The position numbers and the translations under genes were made by a program. Below the pieces are notes generated by a model, which saw only the letters and a program-made list of their open reading frames with translations, ran no database searches and had not been told where the DNA came from. From Bacteroidota bacterium (GTDB taxonomy: Bacteria > Bacteroidota > Bacteroidia > Palsa-965): a DNA stretch of 32,357 nt. Positions 1,603-13,322 of the stretch are shown here, piece after piece (position 1 is the stretch's first letter; every line of letters begins with the position of its first letter). The DNA lies in the NCBI GenBank assembly GCA_013298545.1, contig JAAFIA010000021.1, positions 1 through 32,357 of the forward strand, in the 5' to 3' direction.

Positions 1603-3918
1603 ATGGTCGATCTTTTACGCAAACATTTTCGCTTAATCAGTTGGATCGCTCTTTTTTTGGTGGGCGGAATTTCTGCGCTTTCGTTATACGAATTGCGCAA
1701 CATTAAATTTGATTACGATTTTGAAAGTTTCTTCCCAGACGAAGACAACGACCTCGAAGCATACTTAGAATACCGCAAAACATTTGAATATGACAATGAG
1801 TTTGTTCTTGTTGCCATTGAAAATAAACAAGGTGTCTTTCGTCCTGATTTCTTAGATCGTGTGCGTACGTTGAGCGATTCGCTGAAAGAAATGAAGGACA
1901 TGACGAGCGTTGTGTCGCCAACAAACCTCACCAATACCATCATCAGCGATCTTGGGCCAATTCAAACGCCCTTATTGCACATCGATCAACCGGAAGTCTT
2001 ACCCGCCGATTCGGTTCAGGTTTACCGTTCAGAAGAATTGGTTGGTTCCTTCTTTTCGCTCGATGCCAAATCACTTTGTTTGTTTTTAAAAACTACGGAA
2101 GGTATTTCCAAAGAAGCATCGGATTCGCTGCTTACCAAAATGGAGAAAGCCATTGCCATCGGAAAATTTGACCGTGTGCATATTGCCGGAAAGATGAACG
2201 GGCAAAAAGTGTATCTGGATAAATTGCGAAACGAGTTTATTATCTTCTTCATTGCTTCTTTCTTCCTGGTGGTCTTGTTTTTATTCATTTCGTTTCGCTC
2301 ACTCTGGGGAATTTGGGTTCCTGTGGTGGTGGTTTTGCTTTCTATTCTCTGGACCTTGGCCTTAATGACGTTCTTAGGAAAAGCACTCGATATTATGACG
2401 GTACTTTTACCAACAATGATGTTTGTGGTAGGCATGTCAGATGTTGTGCATATTGTAACGAAATACCTCGAAGAAATGCGCGACGGAACAGGTGATCGTT
2501 TTGACGCATTGATTAAAACCATTAAAGAAGCTGGATTCCCAACATTCATTACGTTAATTACAACTGCTTTAGGTTTTTTAACGTTGATCAATTCGCACAT
2601 CAAACCTATTCGCGACTTTGGTTTTTATACTTCGCTGGGTGTATTCATTGCATTTGTGCTTTCTTATACCATTCTTCCTGTTGTTTTACACACAATTCGC
2701 ATTCCGAAATTGCGTCTGGAAAGCGAAACTTCTGGGTTCTGGAACAAACGTTTACACCAATTGCTCTTATGGATTTTTAATCATCAGAAATGGATTGCTG
2801 GCGGTACTTTGCTCTTTATTCTTATTGCCTTGTTTGGTATCTCCAAATTACAGATGAACAATTTTTTAATCGAAGGACTAACACGCAACGATGAATTACG
2901 CAAGGATTTTGACTTTTTTGAAAAACAGTATTCTGGTGTAAGACCGTTTGAACTTTTGATTACGCCACGCGATACAAGCCATTCGGTGATGGATGTAGCC
3001 GAATTGCGCGCGCTCGATAAACTAGATAAATTCTTGCACACAAAATATGGTGTGGGTTTTATCATTTCACCTTTATCGTTGGTGAAAAGTTACCACAAGG
3101 CACAAAATAACGCTGATCCGGCATTTTATAAATTACCTCAAGATTCAACGGATATAGTTGATATAACAAGTAATTTGTCGCGTTTTAGAAAGCGGAAAGA
3201 AATAAAAACACTGCTTACGAAAGATGGCAAGAAAGGCCGTATTACGGGCAAAATGCACGATATCGGAAGTTTGAAAATTAGGAAGCTCAATACTGAACTC
3301 GAAGCATTTCTAAAACAGAAGGAATTACAACCGATTCGTGTAGAAATTACAGGAGCGGCGCACATGTTGGATAAAAACAATGAGTATCTGGCCATCAATA
3401 CGCTACAAGGTTTAGCACTTTCTATTCTTGTTGTGGCGGTGATCATTGCTATCATTCACCGCAATTTGCGCATGGTCGTTATTGCCGTAATTCCGAATTT
3501 AATTCCCATCATTTTTATTGGTGGCTTGATGGGTTTCACGGGCATCGAAATTCGATCATCCACATCCATTATTTTCTCGATTGCGTTTGGTATTGCAACC
3601 GACGATACGATTCATTTTCTTGCGCGATTAAAACTCGAAATGCAAAAAGGAATACCACTGCTTTACGCCGTTAAACGCACCTTCTTATCCACCGGAAAAG
3701 CGGTCATTGTAACCTCGCTGATTCTCTGCGCCGGATTTTTCACACTGATTTGTTCGGGATTTGAAAGCACGTATCATTTTGGCTTGCTTGTCAGCATTAC
3801 GCTGTTTGTTGCCGTGCTTACGGATTTATTGCTCTTTCCGGTACTTGTGCTTTGGCTGATGCCGAAGCAGCAAAAGGCGTTAAGCAAACCACCACATGGC
3901 ACTTCGAGCAGCAATTGA
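1603..3918 (+). CDS. RND superfamily exporter (MMPL / SSD type)
   Basis: This is a 771-residue inner-membrane protein with the layout of MMPL/hydrophobe-type RND transporters. One N-terminal membrane helix (about 14-33) is followed by a periplasmic loop, a helix bundle (about 212-360), a second helix and loop (about 391-600), and a second bundle (about 605-760). The two halves repeat: GMSDVVHIVTKYLEEM in the first bundle corresponds to GIATDDTIHFLARLKLEM in the second, the place where these transporters carry proton-relay acids. The FDYDFESFFP motif just after the first helix is typical of the Bacteroidota members. The substrate is not known; lipids or hydrophobic compounds are the usual suggestion for the family. 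Its last 39 bp overlap the 3' end of the convergent radical SAM gene. Confidence 0.88.
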   Translation: MVDLLRKHFRLISWIALFLVGGISALSLYELRNIKFDYDFESFFPDEDNDLEAYLEYRKTFEYDNEFVLVAIENKQGVFRPDFLDRVRTLSDSLKEMKDMTSVVSPTNLTNTIISDLGPIQTPLLHIDQPEVLPADSVQVYRSEELVGSFFSLDAKSLCLFLKTTEGISKEASDSLLTKMEKAIAIGKFDRVHIAGKMNGQKVYLDKLRNEFIIFFIASFFLVVLFLFISFRSLWGIWVPVVVVLLSILWTLALMTFLGKALDIMTVLLPTMMFVVGMSDVVHIVTKYLEEMRDGTGDRFDALIKTIKEAGFPTFITLITTALGFLTLINSHIKPIRDFGFYTSLGVFIAFVLSYTILPVVLHTIRIPKLRLESETSGFWNKRLHQLLLWIFNHQKWIAGGTLLFILIALFGISKLQMNNFLIEGLTRNDELRKDFDFFEKQYSGVRPFELLITPRDTSHSVMDVAELRALDKLDKFLHTKYGVGFIISPLSLVKSYHKAQNNADPAFYKLPQDSTDIVDITSNLSRFRKRKEIKTLLTKDGKKGRITGKMHDIGSLKIRKLNTELEAFLKQKELQPIRVEITGAAHMLDKNNEYLAINTLQGLALSILVVAVIIAIIHRNLRMVVIAVIPNLIPIIFIGGLMGFTGIEIRSSTSIIFSIAFGIATDDTIHFLARLKLEMQKGIPLLYAVKRTFLSTGKAVIVTSLILCAGFFTLICSGFESTYHFGLLVSITLFVAVLTDLLLFPVLVLWLMPKQQKALSKPPHGTSSSN

Positions 3919-5268
3919 TTTTAGGCGCAATTTGCTCAAGTGAAAGAATGACGCATTTTTTTGAGCTTTATGTAAAGCCACTTCATTGTACACCCAACGC
4001 ACGGCATAATCATAAAATTTGCGCGAATAGGTGCGTTTAAAATCAATATCGCGGTCGGTAGATGAATCCCATTCCAGATCAGTTAAAAAACGATTTTCTA
4101 CTTCTGCATACAACGGTGTTCCTTTAATGGGATAAGCAACCGTTAGTGTAAAATAATCAGGATCTGATTCGGTTAAATGGCGAATGGTTTCTTTGATATC
4201 GTCGCGCGTTTCGCCAGGATAGCCAAGCATGATAAACGTTCCGGCTTCTAATCCTTTTTTGCGCGCCAAGCGAATCATTTCACGCACTTGATTGACATCA
4301 ACGCGTCGATCCATTGCATCAATGATGCGTTGCGACCCGCTCTCTGCGCCAATCCATACCCGCTTGCAACCGCTTTCTACGAGCATATCAATGACTTCTT
4401 CACTCATGCGGTCGGCACGCGTAATGATTTCGTATGCGACGTTCAGCTCACGCGCGCGGATCTCGTCTGCAAATTCGCGCAGCCATTTGTGGCTGATGGT
4501 AAACACATCGTCCACAAACCAAATCATATCAAACTGATAATTTTTTTGCAAATACGCCAATTCGTCGCAGACCCGTTTGGCACTCATACGTCGGTAGCTC
4601 AATCCATAAACGGCGCGGCTACACCATTTGCAGGTGTAAGGACAACCGCGCATGGTACTAACCGATGCAGAACTATGTCCATGCCGCGATTTCCAAGCAT
4701 CGAAATAGCGCTGCAAGTCAATTTTTTTTCGGTTGGCAAAAGGTAGTTCATCAATTTGCTTGATGAGTGCCCGCTCTTCGTTTTCTATTTTTTCTCCAGC
4801 CTCATTTCTCCAGATCAATCCACGAATCAAGGCTAAATTTTTGGAATCGGGTTGCTCAAAATATTGTATCACTTCAAGCATGGTTTCTTCTCCTTCGCCA
4901 ATAACAATGGCGTCAGCACCATGTTTCAGAAAATTATCGGCATGGTTTCGTACTTCTGGGCCGCCTAGAATAATTTTGGTGTGTTTCAATTTCGGATGTT
5001 CGCGAATGACGCGCATCACACGCAAGACATTAATCTTCGTCATGAGGTTGACGTAAATACCAACAACGTCTGGACAAAATTCTTCGAGTCGATTTTTTAG
5101 CAAATCAAAATTCTGAAACGTGCTGTCGAAGACTTCATTATCGTACCCCTGTTTTTCGAGCCAAGCCGAAATGCTTAAAATACCAAGTGGTACATAAGGT
5201 TTCATGATGGCCTGTTCTTTGGCATCTTCTTCCAGAAAGTAACCGTGTGTAAGCAGAATACGCATCAT
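3880..5268 (-). CDS. B12-binding radical SAM protein (second copy in operon)
   Basis: The protein has 462 residues. Residues 1-135 look like a cobalamin-binding Rossmann domain (KPYVPLGILSISAWLEKQGY, then LGGPEVRNHAD and GADAIVIGEGEETMLE). The radical SAM core follows, with the cluster motif CPYTCKWC (C209, C213, C216, spacing CxxxCxxC). The GAESGSQRIIDAMDR and LGYPGETRDDIKETI segments are typical of class B (BchE/HpnR-like) enzymes. No DxHxxG motif is seen in the B12 domain, which is common in this class. The substrate is unknown; class members methylate, cyclise or rearrange unactivated carbon. This is the last gene of a four-gene operon, 12 bp after the methyltransferase. ATG codons at 5268 and 5265 are both possible starts. 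Its 3' end overlaps the exporter gene on the other strand by 39 bp. Confidence 0.9.
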   Translation of the reverse strand: MMRILLTHGYFLEEDAKEQAIMKPYVPLGILSISAWLEKQGYDNEVFDSTFQNFDLLKNRLEEFCPDVVGIYVNLMTKINVLRVMRVIREHPKLKHTKIILGGPEVRNHADNFLKHGADAIVIGEGEETMLEVIQYFEQPDSKNLALIRGLIWRNEAGEKIENEERALIKQIDELPFANRKKIDLQRYFDAWKSRHGHSSASVSTMRGCPYTCKWCSRAVYGLSYRRMSAKRVCDELAYLQKNYQFDMIWFVDDVFTISHKWLREFADEIRARELNVAYEIITRADRMSEEVIDMLVESGCKRVWIGAESGSQRIIDAMDRRVDVNQVREMIRLARKKGLEAGTFIMLGYPGETRDDIKETIRHLTESDPDYFTLTVAYPIKGTPLYAEVENRFLTDLEWDSSTDRDIDFKRTYSRKFYDYAVRWVYNEVALHKAQKNASFFHLSKLRLKSIAARSAMWWFA

Positions 5269-5275
5269 AATTGGC

Positions 5276-5283
5276 CAAAGTTA
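5276..5283 (-). promoter_or_regulatory. possible internal -7 box TAACTTTG before the second radical SAM gene
   Basis: TAACTTTG on the minus strand begins with the stop codon (TAA) of the methyltransferase gene and ends 7 nt before the ATG at 5268. It fits the TAnnTTTG consensus and the same close spacing seen at other genes here. It may give the last gene a private, near-leaderless transcript. No -33 element is clear. Confidence 0.3.
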
Positions 5284-6087
5284 ATCATCGTTTCGTCGCA
5301 ACACGATTAAAAAATGATCGCCACGCGCTGCAAGACTTTCGCGGTTGCCTAGAGCATTTTCTAGCCAGTTGAAGGACTGCAAGAGTCTAGGTTTGCTTTT
5401 AAAAAAATGTTCCAAGTATGAAGGCGGAATCATCCAACCCACAGCACGTTTGCGTTCAACACGAAAATAGGGTTGAACAAATTTCTCAATTTCATCAGGC
5501 GCATAATACCAGATTGGAAACGTATGGCCGTTGATGATCGTTTGAACTTCACCTTTTTGTGAACGCCTTGCGGCTTCGTTTGGTTTGTTTTTGCGTTTAA
5601 AATATACTCGCTCCCACCAACAATCGCGGCTCATGATCACCCACACGCAAACGCCATTGGGTTTTAAGAGTTCTTTCAGGCTTGCTGCTAATTCATTGAT
5701 ACGTTTTGCATCAATGCAATTCAGTCCACCAAAATTAGAGAAGATGAAGTCGAACCGCTTACCCGCGAATTGTTTTCCAATCGATCCAAAATCGCAAGCC
5801 AATGCTTCGAGCGGTTGATTTGCTTTGGCCGCTTTCGCGCGCGTCAGCGCCATCATATTTTCCGAGAGATCCGTTGTGGTTACGGTAAGTCCACGTTTTG
5901 CAAATTCGAGTGCGTCAACGCCCGTTCCACCATTCAGTTCAAGTACCGTTTGTATTTTTTCTTTGCGCAAAATAGCATCAACAACTTGCCATACACGGTT
6001 GCGCTGCATTTTTCCGATGGTGGTTTCCGAAAATTCAAGATCGTACTGTGCTGCTGCGGCATCAAAAGCTGCTTTAGTTCCAGTCAT
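5281..6087 (-). CDS. class I SAM-dependent methyltransferase
   Basis: The protein has 268 residues and a Rossmann-type methyltransferase fold. Motif I is VLELNGGTG (48-56), followed by an acidic residue at the end of strand 2 (TTTDLSENM, D73) and the motif IV region FDFIFSNFGGLNC. The start MTGTKAAFDAAAAQYDLEF resembles the AFD..A..YD opening of small-molecule (UbiE/BioC-like) methyltransferases rather than nucleic-acid enzymes. It overlaps the upstream radical SAM gene by 14 bp and is 12 bp from the downstream one, so it very likely acts on the same metabolite. The acceptor cannot be predicted. The C-terminal half (about 170-268, with IWYYAPDEIEKFVQPYFRV) is typical of this group. Confidence 0.88.
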   Translation of the reverse strand: MTGTKAAFDAAAAQYDLEFSETTIGKMQRNRVWQVVDAILRKEKIQTVLELNGGTGVDALEFAKRGLTVTTTDLSENMMALTRAKAAKANQPLEALACDFGSIGKQFAGKRFDFIFSNFGGLNCIDAKRINELAASLKELLKPNGVCVWVIMSRDCWWERVYFKRKNKPNEAARRSQKGEVQTIINGHTFPIWYYAPDEIEKFVQPYFRVERKRAVGWMIPPSYLEHFFKSKPRLLQSFNWLENALGNRESLAARGDHFLIVLRRNDD

Positions 6088-7531
6088 GATTGATGCGCTT
6101 GAGTTTTTGATGTTCGTTAAAAACTACGGGAACATAATACATGAGCGAAGCCGCCCGCCGCATATTTTTAGCATTCAATCGGAAACGCAACAAATTGCGT
6201 AAGCCTTCGTAGCCTTGATGTTTGCGGTAATTTTTATGCACATAGCGGTGCAATTGCTTATAAAAATCGGGCGCATACGTATTGCGGAACATGAGCGTCA
6301 GATCGTCTGAATCACTCCAGTTTTGCTTGTTTTTTAAATCGGCTTTTACCTTTTCATAAAAACCTGTTCCCGGAAGTGGATACGAAACAGAAATACCAAT
6401 ATCGTCGGGCAATAATTCATTCAACAACGCAATTGTTTTCTGAATATCGCTCATGGTTTCGCCTAAATAGCCAAACTGCAAAAAGAAGGCCGATCGAATC
6501 TGGTGTTTTTTTAATAGCTGTGTGGCTTGCCGAATTTGATCAATCGTTGTTCCTTTATCCATTGCATCAAGAATGGTTTGCGAACCGCTTTCTGCACCCA
6601 TCCACACCGTTTCGCAGCCCGCACGCTTCAACGCCGCAACATAATTTTCCGCTACAAGCAAATCAGCGCGCGATTGAATCATGAACCGGAATTTTAAGTT
6701 TTCTTTTTCAACCAAGTCGGCAAAACGAATCACCCAATCGGGTTTTAAGCCAAAAATATCGTCGCTAAACCAAACATGATCAAACCCATAACGCGTTTGC
6801 AAGAGTTGCAATTCTTCAACAACTTGTTCCGGCGATCGCGAATTGTAGCGGTTGCCATAAATTGGTTTTGCACACCAATTGCATTTATACGGACAACCAC
6901 GCGTTGTGGCAAGATTGATTGAAAAGTAACCGTGTTTATTTTTCCAGATCGCTTTATATGCCGCTATATCGGCAAGATCCCAAGCCGGAAGCGGCAAGGC
7001 ATCAAGCTCTTTCATGACTTTGCGTTTGGCGGTACGCACAAGTTCGGTGTTATTCAGAAATGCTAACCCTTCGATTGCCTCTGGCGTATTGTCCTTGCGT
7101 TCGTACATCTTCACCAATTCGAGTAAAGGCATTTCGGCTTCGCCTCGAATAACAATGTCTGCTCCTTCGCGCAAATACTGTTCGTCGTGATCGGTAGAAT
7201 CGCTGCTGCTGACAATGACTTTGCATCCAAACGCTTTGGCCATTTGCTGCATTTTGAACGCCGCCTCACGCATATTGGTAAGGCACATTTTGGTCAAGTA
7301 ATTGAATCCATCATCGTAGATGACAAAAATATCGGGCTGGTGTTTTTCAAGTTCGGCTTGCAATAAATCGGGCGATGCAATGAGTTGTGTATCAAACAAA
7401 GCAACTTCATATCCAGCTTCGCGCAAAACGGCAGCAGCCCAGAGTGTTCCGAGTGGCGGATAGGGTTTGGCAACTTCCCATTGTTTGGGATCAAATTGCA
7501 TGAAATACGAATGCGAAAAGAGAATTTTCAT
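6074..7531 (-). CDS. B12-binding radical SAM protein (first copy in operon)
   Basis: The protein has 485 residues and the same layout as the operon's other radical SAM protein: an N-terminal cobalamin-binding domain (KPYPPLGTLWAAAVLREAGY, then REGADIVIRGEAEMPLLELV), then the 4Fe-4S motif CPYKCNWC (C213, C217, C220). Further shared blocks are WMGAESGSQTILDAMDKGT and FGYLGETMSDIQKTI. The two enzymes are clearly paralogues, but similarity is moderate and patchy, so they probably do different steps. It starts inside the last codon of the nucleotidyltransferase gene (4-bp ATGA overlap) and ends inside the methyltransferase gene (14-bp overlap), which implies translational coupling. Reaction and substrate are unknown. 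Confidence 0.9.
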   Translation of the reverse strand: MKILFSHSYFMQFDPKQWEVAKPYPPLGTLWAAAVLREAGYEVALFDTQLIASPDLLQAELEKHQPDIFVIYDDGFNYLTKMCLTNMREAAFKMQQMAKAFGCKVIVSSSDSTDHDEQYLREGADIVIRGEAEMPLLELVKMYERKDNTPEAIEGLAFLNNTELVRTAKRKVMKELDALPLPAWDLADIAAYKAIWKNKHGYFSINLATTRGCPYKCNWCAKPIYGNRYNSRSPEQVVEELQLLQTRYGFDHVWFSDDIFGLKPDWVIRFADLVEKENLKFRFMIQSRADLLVAENYVAALKRAGCETVWMGAESGSQTILDAMDKGTTIDQIRQATQLLKKHQIRSAFFLQFGYLGETMSDIQKTIALLNELLPDDIGISVSYPLPGTGFYEKVKADLKNKQNWSDSDDLTLMFRNTYAPDFYKQLHRYVHKNYRKHQGYEGLRNLLRFRLNAKNMRRAASLMYYVPVVFNEHQKLKRINHDWN

Positions 7532-8454
7532 GCTTCGTGCAATTGATAGGCAAATACATCAAACTCAAAACCTTTTAATTCGAGTGTAGCGCGTTTAGAC
7601 AGCATTTGTTGGCGTACTTTTTCTTGAAATCCTTGTGGATGATGTTTCGATACATGTTTGCGCGAACGAAAATTGAGATCGAAATCAGATTCTTGAATGT
7701 GTTGGAATTTTTTTTGCCAACGGCGAATCGTTATGCGAAAGAAACGTTCATCGAGCCATTCGCCCATTTTTCCAGAGAATAAATTTTCTAAACGCGCTTG
7801 CCAAGATGTGATGTTTAATGCAGGTATGGCTTGTTTATTTGCTTCCCAATTCGGATAAAACGTATTGATCCATTTGTTTGCCGAGATGAGTTGCTCTCGG
7901 ATTTCGGTGTTGTACATTGGGCGGGCAAAAACCAATTCCGTAGCGACGAAAAGATTTTGATCGGGAATGGCCAAATGATCGGTATCGATGAAATAATTGA
8001 CACAAAAATATTTGCGTGAATTGAGTAAAAAGAACTTTTTGTATGCGATGAGGATTGTGCGCGCAAGCCACAGGCGGCCAGGTTTGGTAACAATAAAGAA
8101 ATCAATATCACCATCTGCATCCATCGTTCCTTTAGAAAGCGATCCACTAATAAAAACACCTCGAACAAAAGGAAACCGCGCAATTTTTGCAGCGTTTTGA
8201 ACCGCTTTCGCTTCGGCTTCCTGCGCACGTTTATTGCGTTCTAGGCGCAATGTTACCCATTGTTCGTGGTCAGCCAAATGCCAAAATCCGTTTGTTTCAG
8301 CAATTAGATTCAATTTTTTTAAGTGGTGTAGTGCTTCATCCAATTCCGACGTGGAGATTTTCGTGTATTGGCAGTACAGTAAAATTTCATGATGGGTGAG
8401 TGGATGTTTGAATACATCGAAATACAACAACGTATTTAAAACAGAAGAGGTCAT
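7528..8454 (-). CDS. nucleotidyltransferase-fold protein with N-terminal helical domain
   Basis: The protein has 308 residues. Residues 1-65 look like a winged-helix-type module (LLYFDVFKHPLTHHEILLYC, then LKKLNLIAETNGFWHL). Residues 97-125 carry the nucleotidyltransferase signature: G104-S105 followed by D116-I117-D118 (GSLSKGT...DIDFF), matching hG[GS]x9-13Dh[DE]h of the pol-beta superfamily. The target (small molecule, protein or RNA) is unknown. The frame extends upstream to 8571, but that start would lie upstream of the likely promoter (8519-8549), so I chose the ATG at 8454, which gives the usual beginning of the family. It is the first gene of the four-gene operon and overlaps the next by 4 bp. 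Confidence 0.83.
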   Translation of the reverse strand: MTSSVLNTLLYFDVFKHPLTHHEILLYCQYTKISTSELDEALHHLKKLNLIAETNGFWHLADHEQWVTLRLERNKRAQEAEAKAVQNAAKIARFPFVRGVFISGSLSKGTMDADGDIDFFIVTKPGRLWLARTILIAYKKFFLLNSRKYFCVNYFIDTDHLAIPDQNLFVATELVFARPMYNTEIREQLISANKWINTFYPNWEANKQAIPALNITSWQARLENLFSGKMGEWLDERFFRITIRRWQKKFQHIQESDFDLNFRSRKHVSKHHPQGFQEKVRQQMLSKRATLELKGFEFDVFAYQLHEA

Positions 8455-8518: not shown

Positions 8519-8549
8519 TGAAAGTACGGTGAATGCTTAAATTCACAAA
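8519..8549 (-). promoter_or_regulatory. promoter of the radical SAM operon
   Basis: On the minus strand TTTG (8549-8546) is separated by 19 nt from TACTTTCA (8526-8519). This fits the Bacteroidota promoter TTTG-N(17-23)-TAnnTTTG with one mismatch at the last base. Transcription should begin near 8512, leaving a leader of about 58 nt before the ATG at 8454. No hairpin or riboswitch-like fold is obvious in that leader, though a cobalamin riboswitch would have been reasonable and is not seen. Confidence 0.6.
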
Positions 8550-8628: not shown

Positions 8629-9291
8629 TTAATAAGCGCGAATAGCAAAAATAAAATTCTCTTCCCACCTGATTTTTTTCTGTGCAACCAAGGCCATTTC
8701 AAATGCATTGGTACGAGCAATGGATTCAATTCCAGCAAGATCACATTCGTCTGAAAGAATCATCCAAATTATTCCATCGGCAGTTAAGTGATTTTTAACT
8801 TGTTTGAAAAAGAATTGGAAGTACTCGAGCTGCTCGCCGCAATACCACGCATGTTGTTCGGGTGTTGCGGGGTATTTTTTGAAATAAGGTGGATTGACAA
8901 CAACCCGATCAAATTCTTGTTCGGGTACGTTTTGAAAAAGGTCGGATAAAATGGTTTGTACAGTTAACTTATTTGCTATGGCATTTGCTGCTGTGGCTTG
9001 TATGGCATCTGGCAAAAGATCGACTGCGCTAACGATTGCTCCTTTTTTGGCTGCAACGAGCGAGAGCATGCCCGAACCGCAGCCCATATCACATAAACGC
9101 AATTTGTCGATGCTTTGACCTTCGAGAAAGTCGGAGAAAAAACTGGTACTGAAGAAAAAGCCGGGATGAAAAACGCCGACTGGAATGGTCATGGTAATAC
9201 CATTCCGCGAATACTTGCGCGGTTTTTTCAAATACCATTGAACAACCGGTTTCCAAGTGCGGTTGGCCAGTTTTTTGAAAACGCCATTCAT
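8629..9291 (-). CDS. HemK/PrmC-like class I methyltransferase (NPPY)
   Basis: The protein has 220 residues. SAM-binding motif I is CDMGCGSG (67-74), an acidic residue sits at D91 (SAVDLLPDAI), and the catalytic NPPY is at 133-136 in VVVNPPYFKKYP. NPPY is the signature of N-methyltransferases acting on glutamine side chains or on exocyclic amines of bases. The FHPGFFFSTSFFSDFL segment before motif I is common in the small HemK-related Bacteroidota proteins. It lacks the N-terminal helical domain of PrmC, so it is not PrmC itself. The target is unknown. The frame opens upstream to 9342, but the ATG at 9291 lies 2 bp after the stop codon of the preceding lipoprotein gene, which fits an operon start, so I chose it. 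Confidence 0.83.
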   Translation of the reverse strand: MNGVFKKLANRTWKPVVQWYLKKPRKYSRNGITMTIPVGVFHPGFFFSTSFFSDFLEGQSIDKLRLCDMGCGSGMLSLVAAKKGAIVSAVDLLPDAIQATAANAIANKLTVQTILSDLFQNVPEQEFDRVVVNPPYFKKYPATPEQHAWYCGEQLEYFQFFFKQVKNHLTADGIIWMILSDECDLAGIESIARTNAFEMALVAQKKIRWEENFIFAIRAY

Positions 9292-9293
9292 GC

Positions 9294-9515
9294 TTATCGT
9301 TTGATTTCCAGTTCTGCAAGTGTTCGCGAGCAAACAGGACATTTCCCTGGATTGTCATACGTTTTTCCAGCAATGCAATGATGTGGGCACTCGTATTTCT
9401 TGATTTGCTGATCGGCTTTTGTAGCTTGTTCTTTCTTCGTTTCAGGGCTTTGATTAGTACAAGAAACCGCAAACGTAAGCGAAGCGGATAAAAGAAGGAG
9501 GTTGAGTAATTTCAT
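9294..9515 (-). CDS. small lipoprotein with heavy-metal-binding-type Cys motif
   Basis: The protein has 73 residues. MKLLNLLLLSASLTFAVSC is a lipoprotein signal peptide with the lipobox Cys at 19. After a charged linker comes YECPHHC...PGKCPVCSRTL. This resembles the short heavy-metal-binding domain (YTCPMHP...PGKCPKCGM) found in copper efflux proteins, but the Met-His-Pro is replaced by His-His-Cys, giving CPHHC and CPVC and perhaps a tighter four-Cys zinc or copper site. It would be membrane-anchored. A TTG at 9524 would add three residues, but the ATG at 9515, 6 nt after a TATCTTTG box, is preferred. It is followed 2 bp later by the NPPY methyltransferase; no functional link is evident. 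Confidence 0.78.
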   Translation of the reverse strand: MKLLNLLLLSASLTFAVSCTNQSPETKKEQATKADQQIKKYECPHHCIAGKTYDNPGKCPVCSRTLAELEIKR

Positions 9516-9521
9516 GATTCT

Positions 9522-9529
9522 CAAAGATA
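9522..9529 (-). promoter_or_regulatory. -7 box TATCTTTG of the small lipoprotein gene
   Basis: A perfect TAnnTTTG on the minus strand ends 6 nt before the ATG at 9515. With the usual distance from box to transcription start, the mRNA would begin within 0-3 nt of the start codon. Confidence 0.55.
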
Positions 9530-12328: not shown

Positions 12329-13291
12329 CTATACTCCGAATGCGTCTTCGTCAATCAAGTTCATGCACTTAAAATGACCTTTGGGGCAACTGGCATACCC
12401 AATTTTGGAACAGGGGCGGCAGGATAAATTTTTCACTTCAATTTGTTTAGAGCCTTCGCCTGGCAAGTATGGATACATACCCAATGTAGGAACTGTATTT
12501 CCCCAAACGGAATGAATCTGTTTTTTAAACGCTGCGGCAATGTGCATCAATCCCGTATCATGTGCAATCACGCGTGTAGCTTGGCGCACAAGCGAGGCCG
12601 ATTGTTGAAGGCTGTATTTTCCTGTGGCATCAAAAACGTTTTCGCCACACGCGTCCACAAGTGCGGCTGCGCGCGCGGTATCTTCTTTGCCACCCAATAA
12701 AACAACGGGCAATTCTAATTTTTGAATAATGGCAATCAGTTTTGAAACGGGCAATTGTTTGGTTGCAAACTTTGCGCCAACGGTTAATGCAATGTATCCA
12801 TTTTGATGCGAAGCTGGCAAGGTTTGCAGGTCAACTTCGGCTGTTGGGGGGATAAAAAAATCTAATCCTGCACCATCATTCGTAACGCCAAGTTTTATAA
12901 CAGCGTCGAAATAGCGATCAACAATATGGACATCGGGCATGAGGTTGATGTGCCCGAAAACCAGCAACCATTTTTTGATGTTTAATTTGGGGAAAGAAGC
13001 AGCGGGAATGTTTAGCAAACGTTTGACCTGCATCGAACGCAAGTTGTGGTGCAAATCAACCACAAAATCATAGTTTTCGCTTTTTAATAATACAGCAACT
13101 TCGCGCACATGCTTTTCAATGGTAATGACTTTATCGACGTGCGGATTGGGGTCGAGAATTTGCCGGAAGGCAGATTTGGTGAGTACATGGACTTTGGCAC
13201 CTGTTTGTTGTTTAAGGCAACGCAAAACGGGCGAAATCAAAACAATATCGCCAATGGAGCTAAAACGAACAACAAGAATTTTTTTTGTCAT
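12329..13291 (-). CDS. glycosyltransferase family 9 (LPS heptosyltransferase-like)
   Basis: The protein has 320 residues. It starts with KILVVRFSSIGDIVLISPVLRCLK, the typical N-terminal motif of ADP-heptose:LPS heptosyltransferases. Later blocks are the C-terminal nucleotide-sugar site (PVVLLGGKEDTARA, RVIAHDTGLMHIAAAF, HSVWGNTVP) and a Cys-rich end (CRPCSKIGYASCPKGHFKCM). The donor could be a heptose or another sugar. It is expected to act on the inner face of the inner membrane in LPS core or surface glycan synthesis. The frame extends to 13321, but the ATG at 13291 lies 6 nt after a TACTTTTG box and gives the usual start. It stands alone, without other glycan genes beside it. Confidence 0.92.
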   Translation of the reverse strand: MTKKILVVRFSSIGDIVLISPVLRCLKQQTGAKVHVLTKSAFRQILDPNPHVDKVITIEKHVREVAVLLKSENYDFVVDLHHNLRSMQVKRLLNIPAASFPKLNIKKWLLVFGHINLMPDVHIVDRYFDAVIKLGVTNDGAGLDFFIPPTAEVDLQTLPASHQNGYIALTVGAKFATKQLPVSKLIAIIQKLELPVVLLGGKEDTARAAALVDACGENVFDATGKYSLQQSASLVRQATRVIAHDTGLMHIAAAFKKQIHSVWGNTVPTLGMYPYLPGEGSKQIEVKNLSCRPCSKIGYASCPKGHFKCMNLIDEDAFGV

Positions 13292-13297
13292 GCGCGA

Positions 13298-13305
13298 CAA
13301 AAGTA
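13298..13305 (-). promoter_or_regulatory. -7 box TACTTTTG of the GT9 gene
   Basis: A perfect TAnnTTTG on the minus strand ends 6 nt before the ATG at 13291. This predicts a leaderless or nearly leaderless mRNA. A TTG at 13321-13319 is only 13 nt upstream, shorter than the usual spacing. Confidence 0.55.
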
Positions 13306-13322
13306 AGCAGGGATTGGGCAAT

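Follow-up and report, generated by a model that had tools for sequence, protein, structure and literature searches.

Several described systems come close to parts of the gene set analysed here. Among radical SAM proteins, the nearest are the BchE/HpnJ/HpnR/MgmA group, in which B12-binding and Radical_SAM domains are combined, and AprD4, the radical SAM 1,2-diol dehydratase of apramycin biosynthesis, which joins a B12-like Rossmann domain to a radical SAM barrel. The kanamycin/ANT(4') nucleotidyltransferases and MntA share an NTase core fold with a GS..DxD signature and are tied to resistance or to a HepT partner. Wzx, Wzy_C, Wzz, GT4 and Bac_transf, known from the Wzx/Wzy-type polysaccharide loci of Bacteroidota, are frequent neighbours of the set described below; we know of no described locus of this type that carries a trio of B12-type radical SAM proteins together with such a nucleotidyltransferase. 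In the literature within reach of our search, which leaves out most subscription papers, no description of these nucleotidyltransferase and radical SAM families or of the gene combination was found. The enzymes come from known superfamilies; the cassette itself is undescribed and unusually rich in B12-type radical SAM proteins.

Gene layout and family assignment

The four core genes lie on the minus strand of the window (the whole stretch of DNA analysed, 32,357 nucleotides), which is part of a 58-kb contig (C69) in a 4.5-Mb Bacteroidota genome. NT (7528..8454) encodes a nucleotidyltransferase of 308 residues, its ATG start backed by alignment, in which an N-terminal winged helix is followed by a kanamycin-NTase/MNT-like domain and a C-terminal helical region. 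It overlaps by 4 bp with RS1 (6074..7531), a B12-binding-fold radical SAM protein of 485 residues, which in turn overlaps by 14 bp with MT (5281..6087), a class I SAM-dependent methyltransferase of 268 residues; a gap of 12 bp separates MT from RS2 (3880..5268), a second B12-binding-fold radical SAM protein of 462 residues. At gene level these positions and junctions agree exactly with the original prediction, and its domain calls are borne out. NT matches Pfam NTP_transf_2 (PF01909, E 4e-6, over cut-off) and the [ST]GS and DxD motifs are present in 77/77 NT sequences, because of which the family looks catalytically intact. Both radical SAM proteins match Pfam B12-binding (PF02310) and Radical_SAM, all over cut-off (E 1e-15 and 3e-23 for RS2), and the CxxxCxxC cluster motif (C213-C217-C220 in RS1) is intact in 57/57 RS1 sequences and in all RS2 sequences but two contig-end fragments. 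MT carries Pfam class I methyltransferase domains (Methyltransf_25, E 4e-14). By hydropathy, none of the core proteins has a transmembrane segment.

Just upstream of NT, on the same strand, lies MTS (8629..9291), a HemK/PRK14968-like methyltransferase with an NPPY motif (PRK14968 E 4e-27, below cut-off), whose stop is 174 bp from the NT ATG. A small heavy-metal-binding-domain protein (9294..9524, minus strand; Pfam HMBD E 5e-7) lies 2 bp upstream of MTS and is a doubtful member; a related small ORF stands ahead of MTS in a single relative (L027). The promoter proposed at 8519-8549 did not stand up: it matches the Bacteroidota consensus with a score of 8/10, no better than what a 220-bp tile of that strand typically reaches at best (65/147 tiles score 8 and 19/147 score higher).

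No member of the unit exceeds the cut-off of a named NCBIfam family among the matches listed, which agrees with the earlier view that these proteins lack assignment to known pathways. The best NCBIfam matches of RS1, RS2 and RS3, a third B12-type radical SAM protein found in relatives, are to the BchE/HpnJ/HpnR/MgmA group, at less than half of each curated cut-off listed. Scores against cut-offs, in bits, are 158/481 for BchE, 142/578 for HpnJ, 119/650 for HpnR and 88/500 for AprD4 (RS1), and TIGR04295 (B12_rSAM_oligo) gives 106 for RS1 and 83 for RS2 with a cut-off of 400. Membership of the BchE, HpnJ, HpnR, ladderane, PhpK and AprD4 families was rejected on the ground that every score falls below cut-off. 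MT likewise matches no named family over cut-off among the NCBIfam matches listed. For NT, nothing was found in NCBIfam at E 0.01, and a sequence search for solved relatives gave chance-level matches only, leaving a similarity of fold to aminoglycoside nucleotidyltransferases (ANT). A role in anti-phage defence was rejected, PADLOC matches being weak and partial. No close plasmid-borne copy was found, the matches all being below 60% identity and the best at 27% over most of the query.

The weak profile matches to HpnJ and rSAM_ladder_B12 could be taken to mean that the unit modifies membrane lipids or a lipid carrier, its acyl, isoprenoid or hopanoid chains being methylated or linked as by HpnR/HpnJ or the ladderane-associated family. 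An MMPL/HAE3-type RND transporter gene (1603..3918, plus strand) is convergent with RS2 in the window, their 3' ends overlapping by 39 bp, and one relative (L025) has a member of this transporter family immediately upstream of MTS. However, these two loci are the only ones in which an MMPL gene adjoins the unit, the HpnJ and rSAM_ladder_B12 scores are far below cut-off, and no fatty-acid or isoprenoid gene family is a repeated neighbour, the exception being acyl-CoA dehydrogenase (6 loci). We consider a lipid substrate quite improbable.

Conservation and extent of the unit

The order NT-RS1-MT-RS2 is found again in relatives, both within the same genus and family and in other families, so that the possibility that the set is found only here, which the original prediction had allowed for, does not apply. 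RS1 and RS2 are 52-68% and 56-67% identical to their orthologues, respectively, NT being looser (34-51%), and the named relatives of the NT protein of the window are metagenome genomes of Flavobacteriales and Saprospiraceae. Among 395 sampled genomes of the class, 62 have NT and 56 have RS1; 55 of the 56 RS1 genomes also carry NT, against 8.8 expected if the two were independent, and seven genomes have NT without RS1. The phylum sample contains RS1 in 27/395 genomes, some of them outside the class. These two surveys rule out a local accident. NT and RS1 adjoin each other on the same strand in 45 loci (median gap -4 bp), 42 of which have them overlapping or within 20 bp; direct neighbours are likewise seen for RS1-MT (43 loci) and MT-RS2 (29 loci). 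Pairwise protein distances are correlated, with a Mantel rho of 0.54 for both NT/RS1 and RS1/RS2 (p 0.001), as expected for shared descent, although species history alone can also produce such a correlation.

Membership is graded. MT is present in 49/57 RS1 loci, and RS2 lies inside the fetched stretch in 33/57, although it may sit elsewhere in some genomes. RS2 therefore seems not to be obligatory, and the proposal that RS1 and RS2 carry out two obligatory successive steps is not supported, while their description as paralogous B12-type proteins (∼35% identical) stands. The phylogeny of the radical SAM proteins that the original prediction had suggested was computed by maximum likelihood; RS1 (n=73), RS2 (n=34, support 100) and RS3 (n=37) each form one group. 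The outgroup branches are very long, which makes placement of the outgroup unsafe, and we draw no conclusion as to whether a duplication within the unit gave rise to RS1 and RS2.

The prediction of a single coupled unit is upheld by the conserved synteny, but its proposed extent was too small. An MTS orthologue is found in 27 loci, in 22 of them directly upstream of NT and in 15 of those within 20 bp, and RS3 is directly upstream of MTS in 19 loci; MTS and RS3 thus belong to the unit in many relatives. NT-RS1-MT(-RS2), to which MTS and RS3 are often added, is conserved as a unit, with examples in further classes of Bacteroidota as well. Genes that frequently join it as optional members encode two more methyltransferases (F1 and F17), a nucleoside-deaminase-type amidohydrolase (F9) and a SPASM radical SAM protein (F20). 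5'-Deoxyadenosine and SAH are by-products of radical SAM and methyltransferase reactions, and one possible role of the amidohydrolase may be to dispose of either. In ten loci RS3 is accompanied by F17 and/or F9 instead of MTS, and the two arrangements look largely alternative; one locus (L138) has both MTS and the amidohydrolase. Another (L074) has two NT paralogues that flank glycan genes at a distance of ∼8 kb from each other; RS1 accompanies one of them, MTS and RS3 the other. In the genome of the window, RS3 is on another contig (C24:43730-45220, locus L135); it is 69% identical to the L033 query, neighbours priA and has no labelled glycan genes around it. Two genes beside it there, encoding 385 and 273 residues, have no Pfam match.

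Structural models and the cofactor question

AlphaFold2 models of NT and RS1 were built from three-row alignments, because of which their confidence is middling. In the NT model (pLDDT 69), residues 1-65 match winged helices and residues 72-199 match ANT(4')/kanamycin nucleotidyltransferase (Z 9.9, rmsd 3.1 over 114 residues). Identity to the kanamycin/ANT(4')/MntA proteins is 12-18%, and NT differs from them by its winged helix and its C-terminal region, as well as by its ties to glycan loci.

The winged helix, together with a fold like that of the MNT antitoxin MntA, might suggest that the unit modifies protein or RNA, either in a RiPP-like pathway or with NT as an AMPylator or tRNA-type enzyme whose winged helix binds nucleic acid. 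The resemblance of MTS to HemK/PrmC-type protein methyltransferases and the structural relationship of RS1 to MgmA, a protein methylase, point the same way. However, no conserved short precursor was seen among ORFs of at least 60 residues, and NT is present in 40/197 genera, a patchy distribution unlike that of housekeeping RNA or protein modification. Such a function is, in our judgement, very improbable.

The closest structure to the RS1 model (pLDDT 65, pTM 0.69) is AprD4 (PDB 6fd2; Z 20.5, rmsd 4.1 over 383 residues), followed by TsrM, MgmA and OxsB, with TokK also matched. RS1 has the same layout of B12-like Rossmann domain and radical SAM barrel as AprD4; identity is 18%, and an AprD4-like reaction would be a prediction. 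The loop that follows the third Rossmann strand contributes, in OxsB and TsrM, a residue facing the cobalamin (PMC13331322). Its counterpart in RS1, DDGFNYLTKMCLTNMREA (residues 73-90), hardly varies in the alignment of relatives, which fits a bound cofactor, predicted to be cobalamin. A B12-type methionine synthase is encoded in the genome, which makes it probable that the cell uses cobalamin. The label 'B12-binding' thus agrees with fold and sequence, but the closest structural match of RS1 is no methylase, and AprD4 shows that a B12-type domain alone is no proof of cobalamin binding.

The likeness of RS1 to an enzyme of apramycin biosynthesis and of the NT domain to kanamycin/ANT(4') nucleotidyltransferases is also what would be expected if the unit made a small natural product, such as a compound resembling an aminoglycoside or a nucleoside, built by the radical SAM proteins and methyltransferases, decorated by glycosyltransferases and modified by NT, perhaps for self-resistance. 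The nucleoside-deaminase-like amidohydrolase of some loci would suit such a pathway, as would the SPASM protein of others, with its weak match to cytosylglucuronate decarboxylase. However, no PKS, NRPS or carrier protein is recurrent among the annotated neighbour families, the repeated Wzy, EpsG, Wzz, Wzx and Bac_transf neighbours are typical of polysaccharides, and NT is found in O-antigen-type loci that have no radical SAM proteins. A natural product of this kind seems unlikely.

Neighbouring glycan genes and a proposed role

The recurrent neighbours of the unit are GT4, GT87 and GT9 glycosyltransferases, Wzy_C, EpsG, Wzz, Wzx/Polysacc_synt and Bac_transf, and this sets it apart from the BchE/HpnJ/HpnR/MgmA group, whose domains it shares. 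By family profiles, polysaccharide genes are present at 31/46 unit loci of at least 15 kb, compared with 5/40 random regions of 20 kb taken from genomes that have the unit or NT (Fisher p 2e-7). The profiles were derived from the 46-locus set and are biased towards it; with the same profiles, 11/18 loci of the phylum survey, none of them shared with that set, have such genes (p 3e-4 against the same 5/40 regions). GT4 is common everywhere and was therefore left out of a second tally, which gave 27/46 and 7/18 loci against 1/40. A Pfam tally of 145 neighbours showed the same trend (Wzy_C 8, methyltransferases 11-12, radical SAM 5), set against 139 random genes among the 25 families listed. About one third of the long loci have no glycan gene nearby.

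A glycan gene shares a directon with a core gene in 28/88 loci, as in NT-RS1-MT-GT87-GT9-RS3 (L150), and three loci (L070, L145 and L150) have GT9 genes within the unit's own run of transcription. NT also occurs beside Bac_transf, Wzy and/or GT4 in the O-antigen-type loci L037, L066, L086 and L087, all but L066 without RS1; in L037 and L086, which lack radical SAM genes, it adjoins the initiating sugar transferase Bac_transf. A possible role of the NT family in glycans could be studied separately in these loci. Many relatives have glycosyltransferase genes plus a polymerase or flippase gene around the unit. In the window, no polymerase or flippase gene is adjacent to the unit. The only glycan gene seen there encodes a GT9 (heptosyltransferase-like) glycosyltransferase (12329..13321, minus strand; Glyco_transf_9 E 3e-21) ∼4 kb upstream, outside the unit's transcription unit and possibly a functional partner, so that the link to glycans rests on the relatives.

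On the strength of these polysaccharide neighbours, we propose, with a probability of about one half (0.52), that the unit is a soluble tailoring cassette that modifies a sugar of a surface polysaccharide or its precursor. The radical SAM proteins, with SAM, an iron-sulfur cluster and probably cobalamin, would modify unactivated carbons of a sugar, or of a nucleotide- or lipid-linked sugar precursor, through either C-methylation or an AprD4-like deoxygenation. O- or N-methyl groups would then be added by MT and MTS, and NT would transfer an NMP, or possibly a phospho-alcohol, onto the sugar; for the latter, LicD and fukutin, other glycan-modifying enzymes of the NTase fold, offer an analogy. 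Glycosyltransferases and Wzx/Wzy- or EpsG-type machinery would build and export the chain.

This proposal is consistent with the model-based likeness of RS1 to AprD4, which acts on an aminosugar, and of the NT domain to the sugar-modifying ANT(4'), and the patchy presence of NT fits that of surface-glycan genes. The original prediction, that the unit builds or decorates one small molecule or lipid, is redirected in that the neighbourhood points to glycan biosynthesis instead of a free small molecule or plain lipid. Each of the three alternatives considered above accounts for part of the data, but not for the repeated polymerase, flippase and sugar-transferase neighbours. On the other hand, neighbourhood is an association and does not identify a substrate, and glycan loci are mosaic, so that a passenger pathway could sit there.

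A more specific and tentative suggestion is that the product is a branched or deoxygenated, methylated sugar bearing a nucleotidyl or phosphodiester group in the surface glycans of Bacteroidota, with NT as a kanamycin-NTase-like glycan-modifying transferase. Most members of the large group of B12-type radical SAM proteins are uncharacterised, and a phylum-wide syntenic trio near surface-polysaccharide genes connects radical carbon chemistry with the surface glycans of bacteria in a way that can be tested. If the proposed role is correct, cobalamin-type radical carbon chemistry would act on a structural polysaccharide, and C-modified sugars that routine glycan analysis could miss would be predicted in these organisms.
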